Assembly: GCA_017555875.1 (NCBI GenBank)
Contig: JAFZFN010000019.1
Span: 1 to 51,753 of the forward strand
Direction of reading: 5' to 3'
DNA from: Bacteroidaceae bacterium
GTDB lineage: Bacteria; Bacteroidota; Bacteroidia; Bacteroidales; Bacteroidaceae
Length of the DNA stretch: 51,753 nucleotides
Positions 3,109-48,157 of this stretch are shown here, piece after piece. Every line of letters begins with the position of its first letter. The first letter of the stretch is position 1. The notes below the pieces were generated by a model. That model was not told the origin of the DNA. It made no database searches and worked only from the letters and a program-made list of their open reading frames with translations. Position numbers and translations under genes: made by a program.

Positions 3109-3110
3109 GA

Positions 3111-3737: not shown

Positions 3738-3765
3738 AAATAAAATCTCCTATTAATTATGACTC

Positions 3766-4236: not shown

Positions 4237-4260
4237 TGTTGTTTTCAGTTAATGAGGTTA

Positions 4261-28000: not shown

Positions 28001-28201
28001 GACTGTCGTGTGGCTGGTGAGGAGGTAGCAGAAGCCATCAGCATGCGTGTCGTTGGTGAGGACGGAGATGACGCTACGGGAATTGATACCTCAGAATTCA
28101 AAAGTCAGAATTCAGAATTCATCTACGACCTGATGGGCCGCCGCGTAGAGAACCCCGCCAAGGGCGTATACATCGTGAATGGTGTGAAGCGTGTATTCTA
28201 A
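25001..28201 (+). CDS. BspA-type leucine-rich-repeat surface protein
   Basis: 1066 residues. Signal peptide about 1-23; a beta-sandwich-like module about 24-125; then two arrays of 23-residue TpLRR/LRR_5 repeats (typical unit LTSITIPESVTSIGDKAFYYC) at about 170-390 and 430-820, each introduced by a similar motif (ITWSLSSRGVLRIEG near 141; LTWELTGEGELIIEG near 402). A C-terminal domain (about 843-1030) is followed by the tail YDLMGRRVENPAKGVYIVNG. Relatives bind host matrix proteins or other bacteria. Codons are AT-rich up to about base 27,530 and GC-rich after it, so the repeat part looks acquired or recombined. A 52-residue peptide gene follows after 18 bases. Confidence 0.9.
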   Translation: MQKTKHWLMTIATLLCSIMVNAATYPDWTSTNKGQGNSTSSNTYTISAAAGDVLTFDWEVSSESGWDKLIVTVDGTEILNESGEASGTYQHTFDASGAHTMIVKYTKDGSADYGEDCAMIYNIVLDDIDEIVTSGTCDRGITWSLSSRGVLRIEGSGDAISNPWIDYSFDIKKIVIGNGVTSIGDGLFFGCNRLTSISISESVKSIGYNAFRDCSSLIDVDIPEGVTKINSFAFMSCSDLTSVTIPQSVTNIAPKAFYGCSNLCSIIVEEGNPIYDSREDCNAIIVSSYNSLAVGCKATIIPQSVTIIENEAFAGMAIKSIVIPKDITSIGSMAFEDCQLTSITCEAITPPTIEYYTFESYYLDRSIPVYVPESSIPYYQSSEYWSEFTNFQPITPSNACGDNLTWELTGEGELIIEGYGPMYDYIESSLPWGDYTYRELIKTVTIKGDVTSIGNSAFHGCYNLTTITIPESVTKIGNNAFKGCYELTSITIPESVTSVGRSAFENCSGLTTITLPEGIVSIENKTFYRCYGLTSITIPESVTSIGDKAFYYCNFLTITIPEGVTSIGESAFEQCSELTSITLPEGITTIGNKTFYGCGMLTSVTIPEGVTSIGESAFEYCSNLASISIPASVTKIGDYAFRYLGNVSTINVAEGNTTYDSREDCNALIESSSNKLILGSSSTVIPQTVTSIGEYAFYRCRNLTSINIPTGVTSIGKYAFSECSNLSSIVIPEGITIIEEATFSHCENLTSITIPKSISSIGDYAFFMSGSKLTALTCQASTPPNVNYYTFEGINKSVPVYVPASSISAYQKATYWSKFTNIQPIVLDVEISDAEGSFEQEGNETCTSITYTRTFNNTNWQSLYVPFDIDYNNIKDDFDVAYINDVHQFDDDNDGSIDRTQVEAIKITTGVLDANYPYLIRAKEVGEKVITLEDAVLYATEENSIDCSSVFRNYTFTGSYTTKTAVNLPASEGYYALTGGEWKQLSETAKLGAFRVYLKIDCRVAGEEVAEAISMRVVGEDGDDATGIDTSEFKSQNSEFIYDLMGRRVENPAKGVYIVNGVKRVF

Positions 28202-32555: not shown

Positions 32556-32588
32556 CAAAGGTAAAGAATTAATTTGAAAAAACTCAAT
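32556..32588 (-). promoter_or_regulatory. Promoter of the Fur-family/purA operon
   Basis: Minus-strand TACCTTTG (32556-32563) with ATTG (32585-32588) 21 bases upstream, 11 bases before the first possible ATG. The -33 box lies inside the stem of the terminator of the upstream operon. Confidence 0.75.
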
Positions 32589-32613
32589 AAATCGCGAAGA
32601 TTTATCGAGTTTT
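32575..32613 (-). terminator. Terminator of the nine-gene SusCD/protease operon
   Basis: On the minus strand AAAACTCGATAAATC, loop TTCGC, GATTTATTGAGTTTT form a 15-bp stem with one mismatch (32579-32613), continuing into TTTTTTC. It lies 45 bases after the last gene of the operon. Confidence 0.75.
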
Positions 32614-32657: not shown

Positions 32658-33125
32658 CTACTCGAGAGGGCGACGCACAGCCTCGACAATGGCAGCCGGC
32701 ACCTCGGGGACACGCACGAAACACTGCACCTCGGACGGCTCCTCGCGGGCAGTCCAGGTCATCGACTCCTCAAAGAGGTCGGTGATGACATACGAGTAGG
32801 ACCAGGGGCCACGATCATAGTCATACACGCCGCTGATGACATCGCCCACACGCCAGTCATACTCCAGCTCATAGGTGCCTGTCTCCAAGACTGGATACAT
32901 GGAGGCCGTGTTCTGATAGATCTCGAAGCCATACTTGCGGTCTATCGCGACATACACATAGGTCCCCTCGGCAAGGGCGTTGCCATTCAAGGTCTCGAGT
33001 TTCCACACACCCTCCAGGTTGTAGGGCTTCACCTCCAAAGGCTCTGGAGCCTCAATAATCTCGTTGTCGCAGGCTGCAAACAGCGCTACGGTAAGCAGCA
33101 TCAACAGGTTGGTCAGTTTCTTCAT
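32658..33125 (-). CDS. Small beta-rich lipoprotein (lipocalin-like), last gene of the SusCD operon
   Basis: 155 residues. A signal peptide with lipobox ALFAAC (lipid Cys19) is followed by acidic residues (DNEIIE) that suggest export to the cell surface. The rest is beta-rich: LEGVWKLETLNG at the start and TGTYELEYDWRVGDVISGVYDY later resemble lipocalin-like Bacteroidetes lipoproteins, in which 'G-x-W-x-L' opens the barrel. No catalytic motif. It ends the nine-gene operon, 27 bases after the DUF1573 gene. Fold assignment is tentative. Confidence 0.75.
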   Translation of the reverse strand: MKKLTNLLMLLTVALFAACDNEIIEAPEPLEVKPYNLEGVWKLETLNGNALAEGTYVYVAIDRKYGFEIYQNTASMYPVLETGTYELEYDWRVGDVISGVYDYDRGPWSYSYVITDLFEESMTWTAREEPSEVQCFVRVPEVPAAIVEAVRRPLE

Positions 33126-33152
33126 ATCGTTGGTTATAATTCTTGTTTCTAC

Positions 33153-33950
33153 TTATTTCTCAATCACAATGCGCAACGTGCGTTCAGAGGGCCTCCCCCC
33201 TACTCCCTCGACAATCAGCGGAGCCTCGATGATGCCTCCCTCCGCAGCAGGGAGCTTGTCCACATCGACAGCAATCACCAGGTCGGCCTCAGCGCCAGGA
33301 GCGATGACGGCAGGCTCGGTGTAGAGCTTGGCATAGGGAGGCAAGATACGTGACGTTAGGCGCAAGGGGCGGCTGCCACTATTGGCACAGAGGACACGTC
33401 GCGTGGTGATGCCATGGGCAGGCAGGTCGATAAAGGACACCACCTTGCGCTTCAGTCGCAACACACCCATCGAATGGGGCAGATGGCGCCACACATCACT
33501 CTCGACCACCTCGCCATAGAGCGAGAGACGGGCCATGGGCTGGCTCTCATAGCCCTCGACATAGACAAAAGCGTCGACATCAATGGTGCCTGGCCTATTC
33601 TTGGGGTTGAAGGTGAGCGTAACCTCCATCTCACCTCCTGCAGCGACAGACACGGAGTCATAGGCGGCGACGGTGCATCCACAAGTGGTACGCACTCGGG
33701 CAATGCGTAGCACCGATTGGCTCACATTGCGCAGACGGAAGGTGCGACTAATCGGGCTGTCCTGCTCTGACAACTCACCCAAATCATAGGATGAATGGTC
33801 GGCATGAAGTATCTTGTCGGCTTCACCATAGAGCGAAGGGCTCACGATAGAATCTATCTGAGCTCGAGTAAGGTTGCTGACCGTTGCCTGGGCAGCGGCA
33901 GTCACAGCAACCCATACCATACAAACCAATATGTGGATTCTATAAGACAC
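33153..33950 (-). CDS. DUF1573 domain protein, exported
   Basis: 265 residues with a signal peptide (about 1-20, ending AAAQA). The middle carries the DUF1573 signature: FRLRNVSQSVLRIARVRTTC-type strands, then TTCGCTVAAY and LTFNPKNRPGTIDVDAFVY. This is an immunoglobulin-like fold found in exported Bacteroidetes proteins. A second similar beta domain probably fills about 165-265. Without a lipobox it is likely periplasmic. It follows the S8 protease by 34 bases and precedes the last lipoprotein gene. Its role in the complex is unknown; a chaperone or scaffold function is only a guess. Confidence 0.85.
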   Translation of the reverse strand: MSYRIHILVCMVWVAVTAAAQATVSNLTRAQIDSIVSPSLYGEADKILHADHSSYDLGELSEQDSPISRTFRLRNVSQSVLRIARVRTTCGCTVAAYDSVSVAAGGEMEVTLTFNPKNRPGTIDVDAFVYVEGYESQPMARLSLYGEVVESDVWRHLPHSMGVLRLKRKVVSFIDLPAHGITTRRVLCANSGSRPLRLTSRILPPYAKLYTEPAVIAPGAEADLVIAVDVDKLPAAEGGIIEAPLIVEGVGGRPSERTLRIVIEK

Positions 33951-33984
33951 CTTAGCTCTCCTATTTTATTTTAAGTGAGATTCT

Positions 33985-36084
33985 TTACATCCACCCATTA
34001 TCATAGCCACCCTTTCGCACAGTGATGGCGATGGTCTGCTCGCCGCAAACCTGTGAGTTCTCCTTGTCGTGCAGCTCGATGGTAGCGGTTGTCGCGCCAG
34101 GCTCGATGCCTGTCACTACCAGCTTGGTGTCGTCCACGATCACGGCATCAGCAACGGTCGAAGAGGCAAGCTTCACGATGTAGTGGACGCTATTACCCTC
34201 TACAAAGTATCTCGCCAAGTCGATGGTCTGCACCTCGCCTGGAGCTACGGTGACGTTGGGGACACGCATATCACTGCCTGCTCCACCACCAATGGCACGC
34301 AACAATGCGCCTGCATCGATGAGCGTACCCATCTTGCCGCGATAGTCATTGAGGTTCATCTGCACCACTGTGTAGCCTGCCGATGAGTGGTTGTAATTAT
34401 AGGTCTTGGTCTTGCCGCGATAAAGAGAGTCCAAGATGTCGCGCGAGGTCTCACGCATCAGCTCCACGAACTCCTCAGCCTTGAAGTGACGGCGCATCTT
34501 TGCAGCATACGACAAGCCCAAGGCAGCCACGCCTGACACGTGGGGACAGCTCATCGAGGTGCCCTCGTAATATCCATAGCCGTCCTGGCCATCAACCACA
34601 AGCGTTGAGAGGATAGCGCCATTGGGACTCTCAATACCGATGCCACTATTGTTCTCGAGCAATGTGCCATAGTACTCGGTATCGCCACCTGGGGCAGAGA
34701 AGTCGACCTCCACGCCATAGTCGGTATAGCCAGCAGGAGTATAGTCAGCAGCAATAGCCGCCACGCTCAAGCACTTGGAGTAGGCCGAAGGGAAGGCAGG
34801 CATGGCCGAGTATTCATTGCCCGCAGCAAAGATAGCAATTCCTCCCTCGATGACACCGTTGGGCGAACCGGCATTGTGGATGAAGTAGTCGATGGCCTCC
34901 TTCTCCAGAGGATAGAGCGTAGCCCACTCCTCCTCAGACGCGGGGCCAGGGGTGTAGCCATCCATCATGTTGGCCAACGCACTGTTGTAGCCCCAGCTAC
35001 ACTGCACGATGACAGCGCCATTGTCGGCGGCATACTTGAAGGCACGAGCCTCCTGAGCCAAGGTCACCGAGTACATGCCGTCGATGACCTGACACGACAT
35101 GATGCGAACTCCCGTGCCTGGAGTGCCATTGCCACCGGCAACACCACATACGCCAAGGTCATTGTTGTTGACCGCAGCGATGGTGCCTGCCACGTGAGTG
35201 CCGTGGCCCGTGTCGTAGTTCTCTGACCAGCAGATGATGGGCGAGTCCTTCACAAAGTTGTATCCATACTTGTCGCCTGCATAGCCGTTGCCATCATTGT
35301 CCTTCTTCGAGGCGTACTCTTCATCCTCATTGACCCACATATTGGCAGCAAGGTCGGGGTGATTCCACATCACACCCTCATCGAGCACAGCGACAATGAT
35401 CTCGGGGTCGCCAGCCTCGGGGTAGATTTTCCAAGCCTCACGGCAGTTGACATCGGCACCGGGAAGCGCCAGTGCATCCCACTCGGGTTGCTCTATCTCA
35501 GGGTAGCCACCATTGTTGATGTAGCCCCACTGGTAGTACAAGCCCTCATCATTGAACGGGGCACCTGCCACACGAGCACCACTCTTGAGGCGCTCACGGC
35601 TGATGGCGACGGGCTTGCTCTTGTCGCGGTCGACGCGCTTCAGCTTGGTATTGCACTGCACCTTGGACACCTCGCCCAAACGTCTGAGGCTGGTGATTGC
35701 CACCTTGAGGTCGGTAGACTTGTCGAAACGCACGATGTACCATAGGTGCAAGCCATTGGCACGGGCACGCTCCTCGTGACGAGGATCAATAGGGAACACA
35801 CGCTCGAGCTCATAGCCGCCAAGGATGCGCAACACCTCGTCGGTAGAGGGGATGCCACTGCGAGTCATTGCTTGGCCCGAAGCGGCAATCTGGTCAAGGA
35901 TATCGGTCATCTCGGGTACAAACTTGATGAGCAGTTCGCCCTCCTCAGCACCCTCAGGGATGAAGGCATCGGTGTGTTCAACCTCCACACCACCCGGAGC
36001 GATGACATCTGCATCGTTACAAGCGGTCACAAACAAGCCCATGATAAGGGCTACTATATAGGTTCTTTTCATATTCATAGTCAT
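33985..36084 (-). CDS. S8 (subtilisin-like) serine protease, surface lipoprotein
   Basis: 699 residues from the ATG at 36084; ATGs at 36078 and 36072 are also possible, and a longer frame would need a TTG. Lipobox VTAC (Cys22) is followed by NDAD. A prodomain-like region (about 50-150, GELLIKFVPEM) precedes the S8 domain with a complete triad: Asp235 (VLDEGV), His294 (DTGHGTHVAG), Ser510 (GTSMSCPHVSG), and oxyanion Asn423 (AAGN). A C-terminal beta domain (about 600-690) follows. Probably displayed on the outer membrane to cut proteins for the SusCD importer encoded upstream. It starts nine bases after the LRR gene. Confidence 0.93.
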   Translation of the reverse strand: MTMNMKRTYIVALIMGLFVTACNDADVIAPGGVEVEHTDAFIPEGAEEGELLIKFVPEMTDILDQIAASGQAMTRSGIPSTDEVLRILGGYELERVFPIDPRHEERARANGLHLWYIVRFDKSTDLKVAITSLRRLGEVSKVQCNTKLKRVDRDKSKPVAISRERLKSGARVAGAPFNDEGLYYQWGYINNGGYPEIEQPEWDALALPGADVNCREAWKIYPEAGDPEIIVAVLDEGVMWNHPDLAANMWVNEDEEYASKKDNDGNGYAGDKYGYNFVKDSPIICWSENYDTGHGTHVAGTIAAVNNNDLGVCGVAGGNGTPGTGVRIMSCQVIDGMYSVTLAQEARAFKYAADNGAVIVQCSWGYNSALANMMDGYTPGPASEEEWATLYPLEKEAIDYFIHNAGSPNGVIEGGIAIFAAGNEYSAMPAFPSAYSKCLSVAAIAADYTPAGYTDYGVEVDFSAPGGDTEYYGTLLENNSGIGIESPNGAILSTLVVDGQDGYGYYEGTSMSCPHVSGVAALGLSYAAKMRRHFKAEEFVELMRETSRDILDSLYRGKTKTYNYNHSSAGYTVVQMNLNDYRGKMGTLIDAGALLRAIGGGAGSDMRVPNVTVAPGEVQTIDLARYFVEGNSVHYIVKLASSTVADAVIVDDTKLVVTGIEPGATTATIELHDKENSQVCGEQTIAITVRKGGYDNGWM

Positions 36085-36093
36085 AGTCAATGC

Positions 36094-37821
36094 TTATTCG
36101 AATTCCTCTACAATCTCATACTTTTTTCTATAGCCAGGGAAGAAATTGTAATAGTATTCATAATTCGTCGGCTCATTGTCAAACTTCACCAAATCACCTT
36201 CCGAGTTGAGTCCATTCTCCTTCTGCATATAGATCAGCGACTCGGGGAACCAATCGAGCAGGTGAGGATGATAGAGCATCCAGTGAGGGAGATTGCCCGT
36301 GAAGAAGTTGAGGTTGAGCGTGAGGCGCTTCATATTGGGCATAATCTTGGGCATGCCCACGAGGTTCCTGATGGTGTCGCCTCCCCATGCGGTGACATCC
36401 TCTTCGGTCCACAAGGGCACATCGGCATCGGGTATGGTGTCGCCATCAACAATGGTAGTAAAGGTCGGCAGCTCACCCTCGATGTAGTTATTTGACAGGC
36501 GCAGCTCCTCAAGCGTATCCCATAGCAGCAGACGTCGCAGCACATCGCTATTGTTCACATTGAAATGAAGGCCGATGCCATCTTCATAGGTATCCTTCTT
36601 GCTGAGGTTCGAGAGCGACCAACGACGGCAATCAATGAAATCGAGCTTCTTCAGCTTGGGGAAATTCTCCTTGGTAAGGATGGCTGGGATCGACTCAAAA
36701 TTATTGGAGCTGAGGTCGAGCGACTCGAGCTTATCGCCAAGTTTGACGAAATCGTCGGGCAAGGACACCAATCCGAAGGCTCCAATCTGCAGGTGCTTCA
36801 GGTATTCGAGGTCGCAGATCTCACTGCCAAGTTCGATGCTCAGCAGCATGGTGTTCACATTACTATATATATTGAGTGTCTCGATATACTTGAGGTAACG
36901 CAACTCTTGAGGGATGCTCTCCTTGGTGTAGCACATCATGAAGTTGGCCGAGCGCACACGACCTACGGCCTCGCGAGGCACCTCACCGCTGAGGATCTCC
37001 TTATCGGTGCTTTCCCAAAGGGTTATGTTGTTCCAATACTGCATGTTCTCACTCACTTCCCATGGGCTGAGCAGCTGCAAGCGATTGATAATGGTCACAA
37101 TAGCCAATGAGTCACCCAAGCGACTATCAGGGATGACAGGAGCAGCCTCCTGAGTGAGCGTCAGCATGGCAGACTTCTCCAATCTGTCAGCATCCTCATT
37201 GAGCGGAAGGAAATTGACAAAGGCTACACGGCCTGTGGTGTCAGAGTTGATCTTCCAATCGAATCTGACCTTTGCTGTGCGTGGTCGAGATGGACGGTCC
37301 AGATTGGGTCTCACCTCAGCCTGCTTGGGAGTAATCCACTCGATGGGGTTGTTCAAGCTATCGACAATGCTCACCTTGAAGTTCACATTGGTGCGCACCT
37401 CGACCTCGAAGTAGCGATCGGCAACGCTATTGGTAGCTGAGGCTATGGTCATGGCCGTATCCTTGAGGTTGATAAACTTGCCATATCCACCTTGCTCGAC
37501 CATCACAAAATACTGGTCGCCCTCGACAGTCTGAAAGGTCAACTTTGCATCACGCAAGCCATTCTGCAATGTAGAGTCTACGAGGATGCTACACTTGGTG
37601 CTACCAACACCATTGGCGGGAGAGATGCTTATCCAAGGTCTATTGGAGCTGACAAACCACTCGACACCTGAGGTCACGAACAGTGACTCGACACCACCTT
37701 CGGGATCTGCATAAATCGTATTCTTTTCTATTTCGAAGCCTAAAGCCTCAATACCATTCTCTTGGTCACAAGAGACGAAGAGAGCAGCAACAATAGCGAA
37801 AAATATAGAGAATCTTTTCAT
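36094..37821 (-). CDS. BACON/LRR lipoprotein
   Basis: 575 residues. Lipobox LFVSC (Cys18) followed by acidic DQENGIE. A BACON-like immunoglobulin domain at about 30-115 (GGVESLFVTSGVEWFVSSN, then FMVEQGG-type ending YFVMVEQGG) and probably a second one to about 230 (MLTLTQEA). Then leucine-rich repeats, about 310-500 (LESLDLSSNNFESIPAIL, LEELRLSNNYIEGELP, MKRLTLNLNFFTGNLP). A binding role at the surface fits: LRRs for a protein ligand, BACON as a spacer. It lies between the 913-residue LRR lipoprotein (18 bases) and the S8 protease (nine bases). Confidence 0.85.
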   Translation of the reverse strand: MKRFSIFFAIVAALFVSCDQENGIEALGFEIEKNTIYADPEGGVESLFVTSGVEWFVSSNRPWISISPANGVGSTKCSILVDSTLQNGLRDAKLTFQTVEGDQYFVMVEQGGYGKFINLKDTAMTIASATNSVADRYFEVEVRTNVNFKVSIVDSLNNPIEWITPKQAEVRPNLDRPSRPRTAKVRFDWKINSDTTGRVAFVNFLPLNEDADRLEKSAMLTLTQEAAPVIPDSRLGDSLAIVTIINRLQLLSPWEVSENMQYWNNITLWESTDKEILSGEVPREAVGRVRSANFMMCYTKESIPQELRYLKYIETLNIYSNVNTMLLSIELGSEICDLEYLKHLQIGAFGLVSLPDDFVKLGDKLESLDLSSNNFESIPAILTKENFPKLKKLDFIDCRRWSLSNLSKKDTYEDGIGLHFNVNNSDVLRRLLLWDTLEELRLSNNYIEGELPTFTTIVDGDTIPDADVPLWTEEDVTAWGGDTIRNLVGMPKIMPNMKRLTLNLNFFTGNLPHWMLYHPHLLDWFPESLIYMQKENGLNSEGDLVKFDNEPTNYEYYYNFFPGYRKKYEIVEEFE

Positions 37822-37839
37822 ATAGTCCTGTATTATGCT

Positions 37840-40581
37840 TTATTGTAATAAGTAGTCGCATCCACGAATATCCTGATCCTTATCATAAATGAGCAGATTG
37901 TATCCCAGACGGTAGTAGTCACACACCTCCGAGAGGTCGATCGAGATGTTGGGGTTGCCCTTTATCTCGAAATATCGGAGATAGGGTGATATGCGGTCCT
38001 CGACCTTACGCAAGTCGTTGTAACCCACATAGAAGGCCACAAGGCTAGGACAGGTGTAGAGTCCCGTGGGCCAAGTCTTGAGGATGCTATTGCCCTGTGC
38101 ATCGCGCTGATAGCGCAAGCCAAACGTAGTGAGGTAACCACAATCGAGCGGCTCATAGGGAAACTCGCTGAAGCAGTTGTGGCTGAGGTCGATACCATAG
38201 AGATAGGGCAAGTTGGTAGACCAGAAGTCTGACGGCTTCTCGGGGTCAGGCGAGAGGGTCGTGAGCTGATTGAAGCTAAGGTCAAGGGTCTGCAAGAGAT
38301 GAGAGTTCTTGCCCGTCATAGAGCCTGCAGGGATGTGCTTCATACCATTGCCCGAGAGGATAAGCGTCGTGATGGGCGAACCCGTCTTGAAGAGCACGGC
38401 GGGCATCTCCTCCAAGCGATTGTATGAGAGTGAGACAGAAGCTGCATTGATGCCGTGATGGGCGTCGCCATTCTCAAAACCTGAAATCAGGTTGTACGAG
38501 AAGTCCACTGAAGCCATGATGTTTACAGACTTGGCGTTGAACACGTCGGGCACCTCGGTAAGCAAGTTATTCGTACAAGAGAACAACTCCACATCATAAT
38601 AGCCGAAGAAGTATTTGTATCCATCCTCGTCAAGCTGGCCAGGGATACTGGTAATCTTGTTATTGTCGAGATAGACCTTCACGAGGTTCACATTCTTACC
38701 GAAGGGATGGAGCGTCTTGATCTGATTGTGGGTACAGTCAAGTAATCCCAACTTGACCATCTTGCTCAGCTTCTCATAGGGAGGGAACTCCTCCAGCTTA
38801 TTGTAGCCCATGTAGAGCATCTGCAGACGATCGCCGCTGTTGCCATCGATGATATCAATCCAGTTGTTGCGCAAGCTATCAGCCTCAATACCGGTATTGC
38901 AGGCAATATTGAGCGACTGGAGCTCGGGCAGACCATCCTCGTCGAACATCTCCATGGGGAGACTTGTGAGGTTGGCGCAGTTGTAGATTTCTACATCGGT
39001 AAGCGACTTCAACTTCTTCCAACTCCACAACTTCTGCTCCTGCTCCTCATAAAATTCGGGGTAAGCTGTATCCTCCTTGACATCGACAAAGAAGTTATTG
39101 ACCGTGATGGGCGAGTTGGCAATGTAGAATTGCTGCAACTTGGTGAGGCGCATCATAGCACGAGAGATACCCTGAATATTGTTGGTCCTCATGCCAAAAT
39201 GCACATCCTTCAGTTCGATGCGACTGCTAGGACGGATGGCTGGCTGCTTGGCGTCGCGGTTTACCTGATCACGCAAGATATCAGACAATCCCTCACGAAC
39301 GTCACGAGCAAGGAACTTGTCATGATAATCCATGCGGATAGACTGCTTCTGCTCGATGCTCATGTCGGCGCTAGCATTCTCGGTGAGACGTCCGCCCAAC
39401 AACTCATCGTGAGTGCCGAGATAAAGTATAGCCAACTCGGTAAGCTGACCGATGGCATCAGGCACAACACCACTAGCACCCATACCGGCAAATGACAGTG
39501 ACTCGACACGACCATTGGCACCTAGAATGACACCAGGCTGCTGTCCCCACATGTCGAGGTCTTTATTAAAATCCCAGTTGCATCCAGGGACCTCGGCCTC
39601 GCCATGATAGCTCCAGTTGGGACCATCGAGAGCAAGCCATATCTCCTTCAGTGCGAGATAGTCCTTGATGTACTCGGCAGTCTCACTCAACTGGATGGTG
39701 ATGTTCACCGAATCATTCAACTCATTGTCGCGTATGAAGAACGAGGGGGCATCCTCTGCCACCATCGCCGTCTCGAGTTCATTCTTGGCCTTCTTATCAG
39801 AATAGGTTGTGTAGCTCATCACGCGATACTCGCCAGCCTTGAGCCACACCATGGTGTCTACAACCAATGAAGTGGTCTGCGCATTGTGCTCAGAGCCATC
39901 CATCGAGCCATTATGGAATCCCTCCTCAAGGATGACAGGGACCTTACTTATCACTGAAGGTTCCTGTGTCTCGACATTCTTCACAGTAAAGCTAACAGCT
40001 TTGATATCACTGAAGGGATAAGCGCCTCCATCTGCAGCACGAGTGGTGGGAGTGGTAAAGGCTTCAGGCTTGACCAAACGGAACGTCGCCTTACCGCGCT
40101 CTCTCACCTTCACAGAGAGGTCCTGATAGACAAGTCCGTCAGGGATTATCGTGAAGGGTAAAGACAAATCATCTACAGTCGTGATTACGCTGTCCAACTT
40201 ATTGTACAATTTGTAGCTAGTCACCTTGTAATCACCAGCCAACAACTGGAGCTTATCACTACGAACGCCATAGGCAGCATTCTCCTCGCTGTAGGAGCGA
40301 AGGACCAGCGTCTGCTCTATCTCCGAGAAATCAGGGCGTTGCAATGACACCCCGACCTTACATGCCTCCGAAAGATACTCCAATGTCGTCTCATCCTCTG
40401 CACGAGAGGCACTCGCCTTGGGCGCTGTATCGTTCTTGAAGAGTCTGAACTGCACATAACCATATGCTGCGCCCAGCTCCTCTTGTTCAGTACAACCAGT
40501 GAGGTTTGCCATCGCAAACACTGCAACAAATACCGCTACGAGAGCTCTACTGAATAATGAAAATTTCATATATCGGTTCAT
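37840..40581 (-). CDS. DUF4458-like/LRR lipoprotein
   Basis: 913 residues. Lipobox NLTGC (Cys30) with TEQEEL after it; a start at Met5 (40569) is equally good. Residues about 36-160 (YGYVQFRLFKND, then LLAGDYKVTSYKLYNKLD) resemble the Bacteroides DUF4458 domain, followed by a related beta domain to about 300. Typical LRRs cover about 340-870 (LGLLDCTHNQIKTLHPFG, VYLDNNKITSIP, LQTLDLSFNQLTTL), with a start like that of plant-type LRR proteins (WLALDGPNWSYHGEAEVPGC). Likely a surface receptor for a protein or peptide. In the operon between the 670-residue lipoprotein and the BACON/LRR lipoprotein. Confidence 0.82.
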   Translation of the reverse strand: MNRYMKFSLFSRALVAVFVAVFAMANLTGCTEQEELGAAYGYVQFRLFKNDTAPKASASRAEDETTLEYLSEACKVGVSLQRPDFSEIEQTLVLRSYSEENAAYGVRSDKLQLLAGDYKVTSYKLYNKLDSVITTVDDLSLPFTIIPDGLVYQDLSVKVRERGKATFRLVKPEAFTTPTTRAADGGAYPFSDIKAVSFTVKNVETQEPSVISKVPVILEEGFHNGSMDGSEHNAQTTSLVVDTMVWLKAGEYRVMSYTTYSDKKAKNELETAMVAEDAPSFFIRDNELNDSVNITIQLSETAEYIKDYLALKEIWLALDGPNWSYHGEAEVPGCNWDFNKDLDMWGQQPGVILGANGRVESLSFAGMGASGVVPDAIGQLTELAILYLGTHDELLGGRLTENASADMSIEQKQSIRMDYHDKFLARDVREGLSDILRDQVNRDAKQPAIRPSSRIELKDVHFGMRTNNIQGISRAMMRLTKLQQFYIANSPITVNNFFVDVKEDTAYPEFYEEQEQKLWSWKKLKSLTDVEIYNCANLTSLPMEMFDEDGLPELQSLNIACNTGIEADSLRNNWIDIIDGNSGDRLQMLYMGYNKLEEFPPYEKLSKMVKLGLLDCTHNQIKTLHPFGKNVNLVKVYLDNNKITSIPGQLDEDGYKYFFGYYDVELFSCTNNLLTEVPDVFNAKSVNIMASVDFSYNLISGFENGDAHHGINAASVSLSYNRLEEMPAVLFKTGSPITTLILSGNGMKHIPAGSMTGKNSHLLQTLDLSFNQLTTLSPDPEKPSDFWSTNLPYLYGIDLSHNCFSEFPYEPLDCGYLTTFGLRYQRDAQGNSILKTWPTGLYTCPSLVAFYVGYNDLRKVEDRISPYLRYFEIKGNPNISIDLSEVCDYYRLGYNLLIYDKDQDIRGCDYLLQ

Positions 40582-40601
40582 AATCTTTTTCTTATCTTTT
40601 C

Positions 40602-42614
40602 TTAGAGTCTAGTTATCACAAGCGCTTTGAGGACATTGGTGTCTGCATCAATGAAATAGATAATGAAGTCCTCATCCATAAAGTACTCTATCGTACCATC
40701 TTCTGTGACATTCTTAATGTTAGCAGAGAGAGTGACAAGCATATAATTGCCCTCGATCTCCTCCATGATGCCATGCTCCTCAGTGTAGTGGTCTTCTGAG
40801 CCCTTACCTGCTTTGTACTTCACACCACTCTTTGCATAGATCTCCACACGGTCCTGGTTATCGGCATTGCTCGTATCCCATACGCTGAGAGGCAGCAAGG
40901 GATTGATGATGTAGGGCATGCTCAGGTCCAGGCTACATCTGAAGACTTTGTTGGCCTCGACACCCTTAGTTGTTGCTATAGCCAGCCACTCGGGGTCTGT
41001 CTCCTTGGTCACTGCGAGGACCTCCATTCCTGTGGCCTTCGTCCTGAAGACCTTCATGGCATTGGCCTCATCGGCTTCTTGGACAAACTTGGCCACTACG
41101 AACTGACCTACATTGTCCTTTATCTCAAGCAGGCCATCAACATCCCAGAACAACACTTCTGCGAGCTCGTCAAAGTAGCTCTCGGTGCCATATCCAAACG
41201 CCTCAGCAAAGGGGAGCGGTAGAGCAAAGAGGTGCATGATGCGCTCGCTGCCCACATTCTCCTTGAAGCCAATCTCTACATTGCCGAATGAGTCATCTGC
41301 CACATCAAGCCAGCTATCCTCAACCGTAAGCAGCTGACAACCTACTTGACTATCATAGCTCACACATACCAAGTCGTAGCCCTCAAGAGTCTCTATGGCA
41401 ACCTTCATCGGAGCATCGCAAGTATCTCCCATGATTGCATCGCAGTAGGTCTTGCCATCAACAGCGACTCTTATGTTCCACTGTGCTTCGGGATCAATCG
41501 TGATTACCGCACCACTCTCCTGCTTCATCTCCACCATACGATACAGTGCGGCTTCCTCGCGGAGTTCCATCATACCTTCGACCTCTTCGCAAAGGAATTC
41601 CAAGACCTCTTCAGTGCCTCCCAAGCTATCGGTAATGGCTTGAGGGAGCGCCATCAAGAGCTGCTGGCGTTCGAGCAAGGCATTGATCTCATTGACAGAC
41701 ACCTCCACCACTCCGTGCAAATCGTCCTGTATGGTCACCCATCCTTCATCCTCCGACAAGATATAGTATCCACAACTCTCATCATAGCCCAATGACACAA
41801 TCTCGTATTCGTCGTTAGCAGCGACGATGCTGAACGACACAGGCATCTCATACTCCTCAACGCCCAAGAACGCTTGCTTGGCATCGTATGACACCACGAG
41901 CACCTCTTCCAGCTGTTGGCTGATGCGGATCTCCCGAGGATTCATTCCTGCATACTGCACATGGAAGCTGCGATGAACGGTGCTGTCCTTTGTCATGCGC
42001 AGCGAGTCGTTCGCATTGTTTATCACATACTTCATCGAGTCATCCATCATGCTCAGCGTCAGCACCTTGCCATCACGCTCCATCTGTACCCAAGAGGGGC
42101 AGTCATATTTCAGAAGATCCATGTCAAAGTTTGGCGATAGGTCCAGGACGAGCTTCCCTTCGGCACCGATTATCAGTGATTCTCCGTCAGCATATACCTG
42201 TCCATTGCTACTCACCTCCACCTCATAGGCCTTTGCAGCACGGCGAGTGATGTAAGCGATGACGCGGCTCTCTCCATTCATATATAAAGTGATGGAAGCC
42301 CTATCGTCTGCAAACAAATTACCACGATCATTTACGACAAAGTTCACCGTGTGCTCTCCAGGCTTTCCGCCCAAGCTCTTGTCTTCGCCATTGATGCGGC
42401 ACCAATCTTTATCTGAATTGATATTCCAGTTGTAACCTACATTGAAAGACACGGCAACCGTCTCTCCACATGTTGCATCTACCACCAACGTATCGGTGGG
42501 GAAGCCCAACACAGTGGTGCCTCCCATGATGTCATCATCACAAGATCCCATGAGCCACGCAGCCATTACGACCATGCACGACAACAATATGTTATGTCTA
42601 TTTCTATTCTTCAT
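40602..42614 (-). CDS. BACON-like lipoprotein of unknown function
   Basis: 670 residues. Lipobox LMGSC (Cys25) followed by DDDIMGG, a strong acidic surface-export type sequence. A BACON-like domain covers about 35-125 (TVAVSFNVGYNWNINSDKDW). The rest holds at least three similar blocks with phrases such as YEIVSLGYDESCGYYILSED, YDLVCVSYDSQVGCQLLTVE and MEVLAVTKETDPEWLAIATT, so an internal repeat of about 150-170 residues is likely. No enzyme motif is visible. I cannot name a family with confidence (possibly DUF5003-like). It follows the DUF4843-like gene by 15 bases. Confidence 0.75.
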   Translation of the reverse strand: MKNRNRHNILLSCMVVMAAWLMGSCDDDIMGGTTVLGFPTDTLVVDATCGETVAVSFNVGYNWNINSDKDWCRINGEDKSLGGKPGEHTVNFVVNDRGNLFADDRASITLYMNGESRVIAYITRRAAKAYEVEVSSNGQVYADGESLIIGAEGKLVLDLSPNFDMDLLKYDCPSWVQMERDGKVLTLSMMDDSMKYVINNANDSLRMTKDSTVHRSFHVQYAGMNPREIRISQQLEEVLVVSYDAKQAFLGVEEYEMPVSFSIVAANDEYEIVSLGYDESCGYYILSEDEGWVTIQDDLHGVVEVSVNEINALLERQQLLMALPQAITDSLGGTEEVLEFLCEEVEGMMELREEAALYRMVEMKQESGAVITIDPEAQWNIRVAVDGKTYCDAIMGDTCDAPMKVAIETLEGYDLVCVSYDSQVGCQLLTVEDSWLDVADDSFGNVEIGFKENVGSERIMHLFALPLPFAEAFGYGTESYFDELAEVLFWDVDGLLEIKDNVGQFVVAKFVQEADEANAMKVFRTKATGMEVLAVTKETDPEWLAIATTKGVEANKVFRCSLDLSMPYIINPLLPLSVWDTSNADNQDRVEIYAKSGVKYKAGKGSEDHYTEEHGIMEEIEGNYMLVTLSANIKNVTEDGTIEYFMDEDFIIYFIDADTNVLKALVITRL

Positions 42615-42629
42615 TGTCTGATATTCTTA

Positions 42630-43535
42630 TTAGTACCCTTGATTCTGCAATATGCGAGCCTCATCGTCGCTAATCCACTCTATGGCATGGATAAAGGTAC
42701 CCACCGTATTGGTTCCAGCTGCCATGCCCGGTACCCACAGAGTGACAAACTGGTAGATAAACTTCTCGCAAGAGCTATAGTAGCTCACCTGCGAAGAGGG
42801 CTGATAGATATGAAGCATGCCATCGCCATACTTCGTGCCGAAGGCCTCACCCGTAGTCACCAGAGGCTGGTCATCCATCTCGATGAGCGGGTTGAGCGCG
42901 TCGTCTGTCGAGAATCTCAGCTTCACATCATAGCCATCATAGTATAGGTCATGCATGATGATTGTCCTTCTCTCCTCGTCGGTCTCGTCCACCGAGGTCT
43001 TGATCAGGCGGTTGTATCCTCCAGCATAGTTGTAAAGGAAGGTAGAGGTTATCATGGCATATCCGGTGAAGGCATTGATATCAAAGGGGCATACCTTGCG
43101 CAGCACCACGCGAGTAGTGTCGCCACCATAAAGGTCCCAGTGATACTTATCATTTGCGATGAGGTGAAGCACCACCTCGGGGTCATAGTCCACTGTGAGG
43201 TTGTCAGCATGTCCCTTGATGCGAAGGTTACCCACCATCTCACCAGCCTTGATGGTGACTGTGTTTGACAAGAGGGTGTAATGCACACCTTCGATAGCAT
43301 TGCTATACTTATCGACCACCTCTACGGCTACTGTGCGGTCCTTATCGCTCACCGTAGTTGCAGCGATTTCCACATCAAACACCTCGGTGTTGTTCTCCAC
43401 GCCCAGCACGGTGAGCGTATCGGCAAACATGATATACTCACCTCCGTCATACAAGGCACGCTCCTCTTCGCAGCTTGTCATGCCTGCGAGCAGCCCCAGC
43501 GAGATGATTGTTCCGAGCAAAATATTTTTCTTCAT
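42630..43535 (-). CDS. DUF4843-like lipoprotein
   Basis: 301 residues. Lipobox AGMTSC (Cys22) followed by EEERALYD. YDGGEYIMFADT, VENNTEVFDVEIAATT and VSDKDRTVAVEVVDKYSNA are typical of the DUF4843 lipoproteins that often follow SusD genes in Bacteroidetes. It is probably an accessory surface subunit that binds the substrate beside SusCD. Fifteen bases separate it from susD upstream and from the BACON-like gene downstream. Confidence 0.82.
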   Translation of the reverse strand: MKKNILLGTIISLGLLAGMTSCEEERALYDGGEYIMFADTLTVLGVENNTEVFDVEIAATTVSDKDRTVAVEVVDKYSNAIEGVHYTLLSNTVTIKAGEMVGNLRIKGHADNLTVDYDPEVVLHLIANDKYHWDLYGGDTTRVVLRKVCPFDINAFTGYAMITSTFLYNYAGGYNRLIKTSVDETDEERRTIIMHDLYYDGYDVKLRFSTDDALNPLIEMDDQPLVTTGEAFGTKYGDGMLHIYQPSSQVSYYSSCEKFIYQFVTLWVPGMAAGTNTVGTFIHAIEWISDDEARILQNQGY

Positions 43536-43550
43536 TCGTCCTTTCTCCTA

Positions 43551-45107
43551 TTACTTATTACTTTCGTTTGGTAAGATATTGGCTCCGGGCGACTCCAACT
43601 CATGTTGTGGTATGGGCCACACGAACAAGGGATTGTCGGCCTCAATCTTGAGGCTGCTGCCATTCGAGAGCGACTGGTCCTGCGGTGTACGCTCAAATCC
43701 TTTGTGCCAACGCTTGAGGTCCTGCAGACGGAAGCCCTCCATATAGAGTTCCTTCACGCGTTCCTCTTCTATTATGTCCATTGCATTGTCTGCGGTGAGG
43801 CTTGCCGACGCGCCTGAGCTGTAACGTGCCTCGCGGAGCTCTGCGATGTCCTTTGATGCCTTGGCATAGTCAGGAGTCTCCTTTTGTGCATAGGCCTCGG
43901 CACGGATGAGGTACTGCTCAGACAGGCGGAACACCTGTGGCTCACACACATGGATGAGCTGCGCCGCATCGAACAACTCCTGATTGCCCCAATACTTCGA
44001 GAGCAGAGGCCATGTGAGTCCATGGCTATGTCCTGTCGTAGCAGAGGTGAAGGTGGCACCATAGCGCAAGTCGTTGCTGGCATAGAGGCCGAAGACCCAC
44101 TGGGCAGGCACATAGTCGGGCTTGTAGGACTGGAAGTCCCAGTTGAAGAATATCGAGCCCAACGCTCCTCCATACGATGTGGTGGTGAAGCCCACCTCCC
44201 AGATGGTCTCGGTAGAGAGGTTGTAGCGCCACATGTACTCGTAGTAGCTTACGGGCTTGTTGGTCATCGTGATGTAATCAGGCATGTCGGTATACTTTGT
44301 GCTTGCGCTCGACAACAGGAACTGTCCGCTCTCGATGAGCAAGGTCGAGTACTTGATGGCATTCTCATAATCCTTCATGTAGAGAGCCACACGTGAGCGA
44401 AGCGCATACACCGTATATATGCTGAAGTAGGGGCTGCCATAGAAGGTCAAGGTAGCATCCTTCTCCTCCTCCTCGGTGAGCTGCAGGCAGTCCTCGGCAC
44501 GCTCGAGGTCCTCGAGGACAAAGTCGTAGGACTCCTTCAGCGTGGCACGCTTCAGCGAGTCATTGCTGTAATACTCCTTGCGCAACACCACACCGAGCTC
44601 ATGCTGTGCCATCTCATCGCTATCGTAGGCTTTACAGAAGAGCTTGATGAGCTCCGAGTAGGCCAATGCGCGAGCAAAGTAGGCCTCGCCGCAATACTGC
44701 TGCAGACGGTCAAAGTCCTCATCGTTGTACACATTGTCGCGCACCTTGTCGGCGTTGGCCAACAGGAAGTTGCATCGACCGATGACATTGTAGAGCGCTC
44801 CATACACTGAGGTGATCTGCGAGTTGGTGGCCAAGATCTCCCAGCGCCACACGTCACCATAGGTGTTGGTGTAGCCATTGACCGCGTAGGCCAAGTCGGC
44901 CTGGATGTCGGGGAGCAGCGTGAGGTAGCCACTATATAGTGCACCATTCATCCAAGCATTGTAGATGCCTATGACGGCCTGATTGGCATCCTCGATAGTC
45001 GTGATGGCGTTGCCCGCAGGGATCTCGTCTTGAGGGAACTTGTCAAGACAAGATGAGAGCACACATGCGCTGAGCGCAACAAGTAGATATATTCTGAATT
45101 TCTTCAT
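43551..45107 (-). CDS. SusD/RagB family surface lipoprotein
   Basis: 518 residues. Lipobox VLSSC (Cys19) with LDKFPQDE. The SusD fold is clear from TTIEDANQAVIGIYNAW, EAYFARALAYSELIKLFCKAYD (TPR region), YLIRAEAYAQKE and the C-terminal ELYMEGFRLQDLKRW. It forms the hinged lid over its SusC partner, closing on ligand before import. It lies 12 bases after susC. The absence of sugar-active enzymes and the presence of a protease in the same operon suggest peptide rather than glycan binding. Confidence 0.95.
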   Translation of the reverse strand: MKKFRIYLLVALSACVLSSCLDKFPQDEIPAGNAITTIEDANQAVIGIYNAWMNGALYSGYLTLLPDIQADLAYAVNGYTNTYGDVWRWEILATNSQITSVYGALYNVIGRCNFLLANADKVRDNVYNDEDFDRLQQYCGEAYFARALAYSELIKLFCKAYDSDEMAQHELGVVLRKEYYSNDSLKRATLKESYDFVLEDLERAEDCLQLTEEEEKDATLTFYGSPYFSIYTVYALRSRVALYMKDYENAIKYSTLLIESGQFLLSSASTKYTDMPDYITMTNKPVSYYEYMWRYNLSTETIWEVGFTTTSYGGALGSIFFNWDFQSYKPDYVPAQWVFGLYASNDLRYGATFTSATTGHSHGLTWPLLSKYWGNQELFDAAQLIHVCEPQVFRLSEQYLIRAEAYAQKETPDYAKASKDIAELREARYSSGASASLTADNAMDIIEEERVKELYMEGFRLQDLKRWHKGFERTPQDQSLSNGSSLKIEADNPLFVWPIPQHELESPGANILPNESNK

Positions 45108-45119
45108 AATGCATCGGAA

Positions 45120-48056
45120 TTAGAAGGTTAGCTCCATGCCAAGAGAGAACTGGCGCGACATGGGGTACTGCGCTGCATACACATTGCTGGTCGACTCAGG
45201 GTCGATGCCACTAAACTTAGTGAAGGTGAGGAGGTTCTGCCCCTGCACATAGATACGTGCTCCCTCGATACCCTTCATCTTCTCCAGGGTCTTGCGCTGG
45301 AAGGTGTAGCTCAGCATCAGGTTCTTCATGCGGAGGAACGAGGCATCCTCGAGGAAGCGCGAGTCCATCTGCGGGGTCACACCATAGCGAGGGATGTCGG
45401 TGATGTCGCCAGGCTTCTTCCAGCGGTCATAGAGGAGTCGCTTCGACTGGTTGTACACGGTGTAGAGTCCGTTGCTCTCCTCGAAGAAGCGGTCATTGTT
45501 GAACATCCAGCGGTCGGCCACCCAAGCAAACTGCGTGCTCAGCCCTAGGCCTCTCCACGACACCGAGGTACCGAATCCGCCCTGCCATGGTGCCATGTAG
45601 GTCTTGCCGACAAGCACCTTGTCTGACTCGCGGAACTCGGTGGTGATGTTGCCCTTCTGGTCATACCAGAGCGCATCACCATTGGCGGGGTTGACACCGG
45701 CATAGCGATTGATGAAGAACTCGCCCACGGGATGTCCCACCACCAGCTTGGTCGAGGTGCCCGACATTTCATACTCGTTCAGGCCGTTATACAGCTCGGT
45801 AATCTCATTGTGGTTGTACGATGCGTTGGAATTGATGTTCCACACGAAGCGCTCTGTGCGGAAGACATCATAGTTGACCGACATCTCCACACCGCGATTG
45901 ACCATGGCGCCCACATTGTCCCAGCGTTGGCCAAATCCATTGTTGGCATAGGATTGGGGCACGAGCATCAGCATGTCTGTCGTGCGCTTGTTGTAGAACT
46001 CCACGTCGACATTGAGGCGGTGCCAGAATCCGAGGTGCAGCGCGAGGTTGCTGCTCCAGAGCTGCTCCCAGCTGAGATTGGGGTTGCCCTCACTCGAGGG
46101 AGCGATGCCCGACTCACCATTATATATATAGCCACCGCCCACGAGCTCCAAGTGGTCATAGTTGGGGATGGCCGAGTTGCCCGACGTACCGGTGCTGAGT
46201 GCCACCTGCGCATTGGTAATCCATGTATAGGGGCGCATGAACTTCTCCTTCAGCACGTTCCACATCAAGCCCACCGACCAGAAACTGGCCCAACGGCCAT
46301 TCTTACCGAAGCGCGACGAGGCGTCGGTACGGAGCGAGAAGTCAGCATAATACTTATCCATGTAGTTGTACTCACCGCGTCCGAAGAACGACAGGTAGCT
46401 GTAGCTGGAGTAGCTCCTTCCCCACGAGGTGGCCATCGTGCCGGTCGAGAGGTTGGTGAGGTAGTCGTTGTTCTGACCGCGTGTCACCACCTGGAAGCTC
46501 TCCGAGCGGAAGTTCACTCCCTCTTGTCCGAGCATGAAGTTGAAGTCGTGCACATAGTCAAGGTTGAGCTTATAGTTGGCCGTGTTGGTCGCTGTGAGCT
46601 GCATCGCGTGGCTCATGGCATTTCCTGCCGAGCCTATGCCGTTGTTGCCGGGGAAGCTGGGCAGCGACTTCACGTCGGTCGTCGAGAGCGAGAAGTCCAC
46701 ACCCAGCTGTGAGCGCAATGTGAGGTTCTTCACTGGGGTCATCTCGGCATACACCGTGCTCAGCAGCTTATACTTCTCCATCTCCTGAGGGTTGCTTGCC
46801 ATCCACTCGATGGGGTTCTGTGTCGTTCCTGCCCATGAGCCATCCTTCGAAGAGGCGATGCTACCATCCTTCTTGTAGGGGTTCCAGTAGGGGAGCATGA
46901 ATCGGCTTGCTGAGATGGGGGTGTAGAGCGTATAAGCTCCCTCCTCGGCCTGCTGCACCTGCTCATAGGTCATCATCGTGTTGGTACCCATCTTGAGCCA
47001 CTCGCCCGTCTTCACATCGGCATTGCTGCGGAGCGAATAGCGTCTGAAGGTAGACCCCATGGCGATACCGTCCTGGTCAAAGAAGTTACCCGACACAAAG
47101 TAGTTCATGCGCTCTGTCGCGCGGCTCACTGAGAAGTCATAGTTCTGCAGCAGGGCGCGATTATTGAAGATGGCCTCCTGCCAATTGATGTCGGTCTGAC
47201 GCAGCAGGTCATAGTCCTGTCCCTTGTCGAGTCCCAGCTCCTTCTCGAAGGCGATACGCTCCTCGGTGTTCATCAGCATCCACTCCTTGGAGCTAGCCAG
47301 CTGCGACACGCCTCCCATGGCACGTAGTGTCACCTTGGCCTTCTCCATCTGTGTGCCACGCTTGGTCGTGATCACCACCACGCCATTGGCGGCACGGGCA
47401 CCATAGATTGATGTGGACGATGCATCCTTGAGCACCGACACCGACTCGATGTCGTTGGGGCTGATCGTGTTGAAGTCGGCACTCGAGATGGGCACACCAT
47501 CGAGGATGAAGAGCGGAGCCGTACCCGAGTTGATGGAGTTGGTACCACGTATCTGGAACGTGGCCGCCTTCGAGGGCTCACCCGAGTTGGAGAGCACCAT
47601 CAGTCCGGGGCTCTGTCCCTGCAGTGCCTGGTCAAATCCCGCTGCGGGGATCTCGGCAATCTTGTCGGCCTTGACCATCGATACCGAACCTGCCACGGTA
47701 CCCTTCTTTCTCACTCCATACGCCACGACGACCACCTCTTCCATGAGTTGTGCGTCCGACAGCATCTCGATGTCGAGCTTGCCCGTCTTGGCTGTCACCT
47801 TGTGCTGCTGCTCCTGCATACCGAGATAGGTAAAGCTCAACAGCACCTCCTTGCCGGTCAGTTCGATGGAGTAGTTTCCATCAAAGTCTGTCACCGTTCC
47901 GTTCGTCGACCCATCCAACGGGCGTATTGCTACACCGATCAGAGGCTCACCATCCTCCTTGGAGATGACCGTACCCTCGACCACGAAGCTCTGTGCGAGC
48001 AGCGTGCCGAAGGAGACCATCATTCCAAGAATGACTGCTAATAGTCTTTTCTTCAT
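45120..48056 (-). CDS. SusC/RagA family TonB-dependent outer-membrane transporter
   Basis: 978 residues. Signal peptide about 1-21; a carboxypeptidase-regulatory-like domain (about 25-98, VEGTVISKEDGEPLIGVAI); the TonB-box region (MEEVVVVAYGVRKK, about 105-118); a plug (about 119-230, with IRGTNSINSGTAPLFILDGVP); and a beta-barrel ending RQFSLGMELTF, with the terminal aromatic needed for BAM insertion. It imports ligands held by the SusD lid, powered by ExbB-ExbD-TonB (an exb operon lies at 2.6-5.1 kb). At 978 residues it is at the short end of the family. First gene of the nine-gene operon; no adjacent anti-sigma or hybrid two-component regulator. Confidence 0.95.
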   Translation of the reverse strand: MKKRLLAVILGMMVSFGTLLAQSFVVEGTVISKEDGEPLIGVAIRPLDGSTNGTVTDFDGNYSIELTGKEVLLSFTYLGMQEQQHKVTAKTGKLDIEMLSDAQLMEEVVVVAYGVRKKGTVAGSVSMVKADKIAEIPAAGFDQALQGQSPGLMVLSNSGEPSKAATFQIRGTNSINSGTAPLFILDGVPISSADFNTISPNDIESVSVLKDASSTSIYGARAANGVVVITTKRGTQMEKAKVTLRAMGGVSQLASSKEWMLMNTEERIAFEKELGLDKGQDYDLLRQTDINWQEAIFNNRALLQNYDFSVSRATERMNYFVSGNFFDQDGIAMGSTFRRYSLRSNADVKTGEWLKMGTNTMMTYEQVQQAEEGAYTLYTPISASRFMLPYWNPYKKDGSIASSKDGSWAGTTQNPIEWMASNPQEMEKYKLLSTVYAEMTPVKNLTLRSQLGVDFSLSTTDVKSLPSFPGNNGIGSAGNAMSHAMQLTATNTANYKLNLDYVHDFNFMLGQEGVNFRSESFQVVTRGQNNDYLTNLSTGTMATSWGRSYSSYSYLSFFGRGEYNYMDKYYADFSLRTDASSRFGKNGRWASFWSVGLMWNVLKEKFMRPYTWITNAQVALSTGTSGNSAIPNYDHLELVGGGYIYNGESGIAPSSEGNPNLSWEQLWSSNLALHLGFWHRLNVDVEFYNKRTTDMLMLVPQSYANNGFGQRWDNVGAMVNRGVEMSVNYDVFRTERFVWNINSNASYNHNEITELYNGLNEYEMSGTSTKLVVGHPVGEFFINRYAGVNPANGDALWYDQKGNITTEFRESDKVLVGKTYMAPWQGGFGTSVSWRGLGLSTQFAWVADRWMFNNDRFFEESNGLYTVYNQSKRLLYDRWKKPGDITDIPRYGVTPQMDSRFLEDASFLRMKNLMLSYTFQRKTLEKMKGIEGARIYVQGQNLLTFTKFSGIDPESTSNVYAAQYPMSRQFSLGMELTF

Positions 48057-48149
48057 TATGTGATTGTAAAATTTTATTACACAACGGTTTACGATTCATT
48101 TCGCCCATCCCAAGCGCCCGCGCCTAGCACGCCAAAATCAAATCGGCCG

Positions 48150-48157
48150 CAAAATTA
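48150..48157 (-). promoter_or_regulatory. Promoter -7 box of the susC operon
   Basis: Minus-strand TAATTTTG fits TAnnTTTG, 93 bases before the susC start; the leader is unusually GC-rich (GGCGCGGGCGCTTGGG). No clear -33 TTG. Confidence 0.5.

Follow-up and report, generated by a model that had tools for sequence, protein, structure and literature searches.

The window, by which we mean the whole 51,753-nt stretch of DNA analysed here, carries on its minus strand, from position 48056 to 32658, nine open reading frames arranged head to tail. These frames and the signals that flank them are as follows.

48150..48157, minus strand: promoter -7 box TAATTTTG, of the TAnnTTTG type
45120..48056, minus strand: SusC/RagA-type TonB-dependent outer-membrane transporter, 978 aa (TonB plug and barrel; TIGR04056, 783 bits)
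43551..45107, minus strand: SusD/RagB-type lid lipoprotein, 518 aa (SusD_RagB profile; RagB, 73.5 bits)
42630..43535, minus strand: DUF4984 lipoprotein, 301 aa (PF16372; N domain predicted to be Calx-beta/DUF1735-like, followed by a C domain)
40602..42614, minus strand: hypervariable lipoprotein of slot 4 (B), 670 aa (DUF5003/BACON family, assigned through relatives)
37840..40581, minus strand: DUF4458 and leucine-rich-repeat (LRR) lipoprotein, 913 aa (Pfam; solved relatives 4ecn and 4eco)
36094..37821, minus strand: BACON-like and LRR lipoprotein, 575 aa (Pfam, order in the family)
33985..36090, minus strand: subtilisin-like protease with lipobox, S8_N plus S8 (D237, H296, N425, S512)
33153..33950, minus strand: DUF1573 protein, 265 aa (Pfam; the window copy is without lipobox)
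32658..33125, minus strand: small lipocalin-like lipoprotein, 155 aa (Lipocalin_4 through relatives)
32579..32613, minus strand: intrinsic terminator hairpin, 15-bp stem followed by a T run

The gaps between successive frames, from SusC to the lipocalin-like gene, are 12, 15, 15, 20, 18, 3, 34 and 27 bases, and median gaps among homologous loci are 3-21 bases. A first-pass annotation had given the range as 9-34 bases; the tight packing and the maximum of 34 stand, while the minimum falls to 3 nt if S8 starts at an upstream TTG, a later in-frame ATG bringing the gap back to about 9. A promoter box of this type, which is that of Bacteroidales, is present in 65 of 75 loci in the stretch from -250 to +60 around the first gene, as opposed to 49 of 525 internal gene starts used as a control and 21% of shuffled first-gene stretches. 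The terminator hairpin folds on the opposite strand too, and the 66-base stretch that was folded has an energy of -16.2 kcal/mol. Thus, the earlier description of a nine-gene SusCD operon with a protease and LRR lipoproteins, a single promoter box before it and a terminator after it, was borne out by the frames, their domains and their recurrent order (see below), and by the box at 48157-48150 and the hairpin at 32613-32579. The nine-gene block is conserved and looks like one transcription unit.

Two of the domain assignments, those of slot 4 and of the small lipoprotein, required relatives of the window proteins. The third gene had been called DUF4843-like, a label that has to be replaced: PF16132 stays under its cut-off, and the profile match is to DUF4984 (PF16372, E 1.2e-56). 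Its predicted structure (pLDDT 87.5) consists of a Calx-beta/DUF1735-like N domain and a second domain, with 3p02 of B. ovatus as the best whole-protein match, a loose one (TM 0.35); none of the BT2261-64 chains appeared in the matches listed for this model, which excludes nothing. The description of slot 4 as BACON-like holds for part of the family, in which BACON is matched by 8 and DUF5003 by 15 of the 19 aligned members, but not for the window copy, which matches neither at E 0.01 and yields a weak predicted structure (mean pLDDT 69.7) with generic Ig-like matches only. In slot 6 the BACON and LRR matches lie slightly under the Pfam cut-offs, LRR_1 excepted, and Lipocalin_4 (PF13648) was found at E 0.01 in 16 of 19 members of the small lipoprotein family, the window copy reaching only E 0.023. 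A near full-length relative of the DUF4458-LRR protein has been solved as 4ecn, which is presumably BT_0210. Another LRR-containing surface protein, of the BspA type (1066 aa, LRR_5, Pfam 459 bits), is encoded outside the operon at 25001-28201.

To look for homologous loci, we used eight aligned LRR proteins as the query against named genomes, kept the best 80 matches, which represent 79 loci, and ran profiles for the nine slots on the six-frame open frames of 85 sources (the window, L035-L039 and the 79 loci). L026-L034, which come from the same genomes as other loci, and the weakly matching L040 were excluded, and 13 truncated loci were dropped from the 85, leaving 72. The exact nine-gene order is present in 55 of these 72 usable loci, the window counted, from Bacteroides, Phocaeicola, Prevotella/Leyella and Alistipes, although the loci, collected by way of the LRR protein and including some close relatives, do not represent independent draws. 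This was the comparison across Bacteroidales genomes by which the initial proposal was to be checked, and it came out in its favour. The other 17 comprise nine loci without SusC-SusD; L057 and L114, without a detected DUF1573 gene; L042, with the last two genes swapped; L092, with SusC in two pieces; L044, which ends past the BACON/LRR gene; and L037, L038 and L039, which are divergent. Loss of the protease in L044 was considered and rejected, since the genome has a 75% identical S8 on a different contig, the match being interrupted by one stop; in G006, to which L046 belongs, S8 is likewise on another contig, without a stop.

A search that was not anchored on the LRR protein, with DUF4984 alone in 301 genomes of the family, found it in 33 genomes and 8 of 30 genera, and each of these 33 belongs to the 34 genomes with DUF4458. 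At 24 of the 28 strong DUF4984 places (E < 1e-50), S8_N lies on the same contig at a distance of 6.5-7.7 kb, start to start; at the remaining four, S8_N is on other contigs (G002, G006 and G014) or the contig is too short (one case). Seven divergent DUF4984 places among the 301 genomes (one in each of six genomes, of which G577 has another) had no S8_N nearby. DUF4458 itself was detected in 10 of the 19 genomes from the genus and in 7 of 295 from the order, the window's own genome counted, and in the order sample it shares a contig with DUF4984 in 5 of 5 non-own genomes having DUF4984. Chance clustering is ruled out by the recurrent order together with this unanchored DUF4984/S8_N/DUF4458 linkage.

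Traces of the same locus in another species can be found in published B. thetaiotaomicron data. In the accessible part of PMC10434189, the products of BT0207-08 are named RagB/SusD and DUF4984, and those of BT0211-13 are named BACON, S8 peptidase and DUF1573, in the order of the window operon. We infer that the whole block BT0206-BT0214 is the B. thetaiotaomicron version of the locus; the published entries indicate that the operon is not peculiar to the window genome. Table 6 of the same source lists BT0207-08 and BT0211-13 as lower under iron depletion, a decrease that is not convincing because the P values are 0.084-0.57. A BT_0212 mutant, according to the available text of PMC6282197, retained EspB cleavage, which rules out only a sole role of BT_0212 on EspB. 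In the literature covered, we found no function assigned to the locus.

The SusC and SusD genes are adjacent, as in SusCD-type transport loci. Among solved structures, the window SusC scores 602 bits with RagA and 398 bits with the next transporter, 8aa4. A control SusC paralogue from the same genome (L121) shows the opposite preference, with 162 bits for 8aa4 and 133.5 for RagA, so the likeness to RagA is not common to every SusC, as judged from the one paralogue compared. By sequence, the window SusC is closest to RagA among the solved SusCs. For SusD, the 73.5 bits with RagB are hardly above the 70.4 obtained with 3kez, which is named a putative sugar binding protein. The analogy with RagAB of Porphyromonas gingivalis, drawn at the outset, is upheld by sequence for SusC; for SusD, RagB is the best solved match by a narrow margin. 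RagAB is likewise a SusC-SusD pair with a TonB plug. The window pair, however, stands at the head of a block of nine genes, among them protease and receptor genes of a kind that is not known beside ragAB. RagAB is a peptide importer according to the parts available of PMC11817032 and PMC11992087. A more remote parallel is the BT2261-BT2264 complex, which includes extra lipoproteins and whose SusC is only a distant relative of the window SusC (5fq6, 104.7 bits). Its SusCD, BT2263-64, is cited in the accessible text of PMC7782687 as a peptide importer with bound oligopeptide ligands. In regard to TonB, it may be mentioned that genes for possible energisers of TonB, two of them ExbD-like and one ExbB-like, are located at 2644-5079 on the same contig as the operon.

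The protease has retained its catalytic apparatus throughout the family: in the alignment, the catalytic D and H and the oxyanion N are kept in 73 of 73 copies and S in 72, the alignment having a gap for the remaining copy, which is cut off with its contig before this residue. All four residues typical of a subtilase are present in the window copy (D237, H296, N425, S512), as is a lipobox, ACNDAD. These alignments support the view that the operon usually includes a subtilase which is intact and bears a lipobox. S8_N also occurs outside the DUF4984 context, in 56 of the 301 family genomes altogether, and is thus commoner than DUF4984, which indicates that this protease family acts elsewhere as well; some subtilases serve as maturases. 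By a simple pattern, a lipobox is present in 60 of 70 SusD, 69 of 80 DUF4984, 70 of 79 slot 4, 79 of 85 LRR, 74 of 82 BACON/LRR, 66 of 73 S8 and 56 of 70 lipocalin-like copies, and rarely in SusC (3 of 68) and DUF1573 (4 of 68), the latter protein being probably periplasmic. Acidic strings past the lipid-bearing Cys may direct lipoproteins to the surface, and the five residues past the lipobox Cys contain on average 1.7-2.7 D/E in six of the lipoproteins and 0.9 in SusD, although the pattern at times takes an earlier Cys, as happens with SusD and slot 4 of the window.

Conservation differs widely between the slots. In the 57 loci with all nine genes, mean pairwise identity is 68% for SusC, the most conserved operon protein, 63% for SusD and 58% for S8, but only 26% for slot 4. 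Within the genus, the identity of the window slot 4 protein to its counterparts in nine loci is 33-48%, as compared with 86-90% for SusC in the eight that have it. Slot 4 is possibly the specificity part, or a part exposed to immunity or phage. In 26 loci, of which 23 are from Alistipes/Rikenellaceae, there is a tenth gene downstream on the same strand, mostly of about 800 aa and lipoprotein-like (e.g., L065:17594-20047); it is absent from the window and belongs to no Pfam family where tested.

The nine loci in which SusC-SusD is absent (L066, L086, L087, L091, L093, L094, L095, L098 and L101) all belong to Alistipes/Rikenellaceae, start at DUF4984 and keep the seven genes through the lipocalin-like one. 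We considered that SusCD might be encoded in trans in these genomes and searched them for SusC together with seven control genomes. Controls yielded full-length matches at 78-100% identity (100% being the query's own), whereas in the nine genomes, which are MAGs and may be incomplete, there was no full-length close SusC, the best match having 329.8 bits at 32% identity and the relatives being distant (29-44% over the matched part), so this explanation was rejected. An assembly break was likewise rejected, since tblastn detected no SusC or SusD remnant in the nine loci at E 0.01, and since L087, in the only pair aligned, keeps the upstream region of L084: these two loci, without and with SusCD, respectively, form a sister pair in the S8 tree, with about 270 bp upstream in common, including the promoter box. 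On a quick S8 tree, the SusCD label changes five times, with at least four changes forced by the starred branches, a pattern which recombination could mimic. Judging from these comparisons, SusC-SusD was apparently lost several times in Alistipes/Rikenellaceae. The divergent form (L037-L039) consists of SusCD, DUF4984, a BACON protein, LRR and BACON/LRR, followed by a further LRR protein in place of the protease, DUF1573 and lipocalin. Taken together, the SusCD-less loci and the protease-less divergent form imply that import and cutting are separable.

We also inspected the neighbourhood for the attributes of polysaccharide utilization loci (PULs). The window operon is flanked by an HD-domain protein gene upstream and by Fur, PurA, zinc peptidase and HisRS genes downstream. 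As had been claimed for the locus, none of the 25 other window frames scanned, a part of all frames, gave a match to a glycoside hydrolase, sulfatase or PUL-type regulator above the Pfam cut-off; a 1120-aa frame has a BNR match below its cut-off, and the window contains an AsnC-type regulator at 16865-17323. Thus, neither the carbohydrate-active enzymes nor an HTCS, SusR or ECF/anti-sigma regulator by which a PUL is recognised were found in this search, the neighbours being the HD-domain, Fur and PurA genes. For the homologous loci, part of the 431 flanking frames was scanned, 46 same-strand neighbours jointly and some also singly, and 25 of 57 families were listed. GH2 genes lie 39-45 nt past the last gene on the same strand in L112 (17836-19538) and L047 (9768-12332), and, in L042 (1-993) and L046 (1-957), on the opposite strand some 1.9 kb upstream, all four loci being from the window's genus; outside this genus, there was no glycoside hydrolase among the matches listed for these frames. 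Accordingly, regular association with glycan enzymes, which was to count against the proposal, was not seen across lineages, but GH2 does occur near these four loci. FecR, typical of PULs, precedes SusC in one homologue, L114. Directly before SusC in L042 (1153-2805) and L046 (1096-2775) is a streptopain-like peptidase C10 with a Spi/I69 propeptide, and this second secreted protease counts for protein utilisation. Nuclease genes, at one point suspected inside the operon of L061/L070, are instead found upstream of L107 and L116.

The explanation that we favour, at a probability of about 0.52, is a RagAB-like operon for the utilisation of proteins and peptides, in which proteins are captured at the surface and cut, and the peptides imported. 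Most lipoproteins would be brought to the cell surface by the acid-rich strings that follow their lipid-bearing Cys; there, the LRR and BACON/DUF5003 lipoproteins would capture proteins or large peptides, slot 4 providing an adjustable specificity or exposed part; the subtilase would cut the captured proteins, and SusC-SusD would close over the resulting oligopeptides and import them with TonB energy. DUF1573 would work in the periplasm, and the lipocalin-like protein may bind a ligand or restrain the protease. Of the original idea of a protein-utilisation analogue of a PUL, the conserved block, the intact lipobox-bearing subtilase and the RagA-like SusC speak in favour, while the nine loci without SusCD and the divergent form without protease do not fit. 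The GH2 neighbours, FecR in L114, the proximity of SusD to 3kez, the option that the subtilase is a maturase and the BT_0212 result with EspB also count against it, and the third and fourth GH2 neighbours caused us to lower our estimate from 0.55 and to raise slightly that for a glycan-related function.

The loci without importer could alternatively mean that the core is a surface receptor and protease module with a non-nutritional task, such as adhesion, remodelling of surface or matrix proteins or destruction of incoming proteins, to which SusCD is a useful but dispensable partner. The retention of DUF4984 through lipocalin in these nine loci, the repeated changes of the SusCD label, the upstream region common to L084 and L087 and the hypervariability of slot 4 are all consistent with such a module; we nevertheless consider it rather unlikely, as SusCD is first in most loci, SusC is the most conserved protein, and the divergent variant has SusCD and no protease. 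The GH2 genes bring up an improbable alternative, utilisation of glycoproteins or glycans with sugar enzymes mostly encoded elsewhere, the protease opening the protein backbone as is thought for the M60-like BT4244 in the mucin PUL BT4240-50. BACON and Calx-beta/DUF1735-like folds do occur in PUL lipoproteins, and that PUL resembles the window locus in encoding a surface protease with SusCD. As far as the accessible part of PMC11992087 goes, a CAZyme PUL with a protease has precedent, and BT4240-50 has glycosidases. The scanned window frames, in contrast, have no glycoside hydrolase above the cut-off, those listed near homologous loci are confined to one genus, and SusC is RagA-like. Finally, the protease could free protein-bound haem, iron or cobalamin for uptake by the lipocalin-like protein and SusCD, for which one might cite the Fur-family gene after the operon, the usual presence of the lipocalin-like lipoprotein and the response of the B. 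thetaiotaomicron genes to iron depletion. Such micronutrient piracy is highly improbable: the Fur gene is past the terminator and adjoins purA, and only L033 of the 15 loci compared, with flanks of differing lengths, had Fur. Iron piracy genes are expected to rise under iron depletion, and the listed change is a fall of doubtful significance (PMC10434189, in the part available).

Returning to protein utilisation, the separability of import and cutting suggests a possible, though doubtful, extension, namely that these operons form a distinct class of protein-utilisation loci with a modular capture-and-cut half. Several Alistipes lineages would have dropped SusC-SusD behind a retained promoter and kept the protease and receptors, so that they may free peptides extracellularly while having no dedicated importer for them, acting as public-goods cutters or using the surface proteins for a second function, while the divergent variant would have kept the importer and placed a third LRR receptor where the protease stands. 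SusCD systems have been treated mainly as sugar importers, and sugar-harvesting gene sets are well known; what is new here is how broad and strict the linkage is, that SusC resembles RagA, and that importer and cutter have been split repeatedly. If the protein-utilisation reading is correct, a widespread and conserved SusCD operon that includes a protease and receptor-like proteins, normally without sugar enzymes, would represent a dedicated protein-nitrogen route in gut Bacteroidales, testable in B. thetaiotaomicron, where the operon genes have tags, and the importer-free Alistipes would be a natural experiment on splitting cutting and importing between cells. Elsewhere in the window, at 15095-16852, a 585-aa frame encodes a fusion of a glutamine amidotransferase-like peptidase C26 with an M19 dipeptidase.
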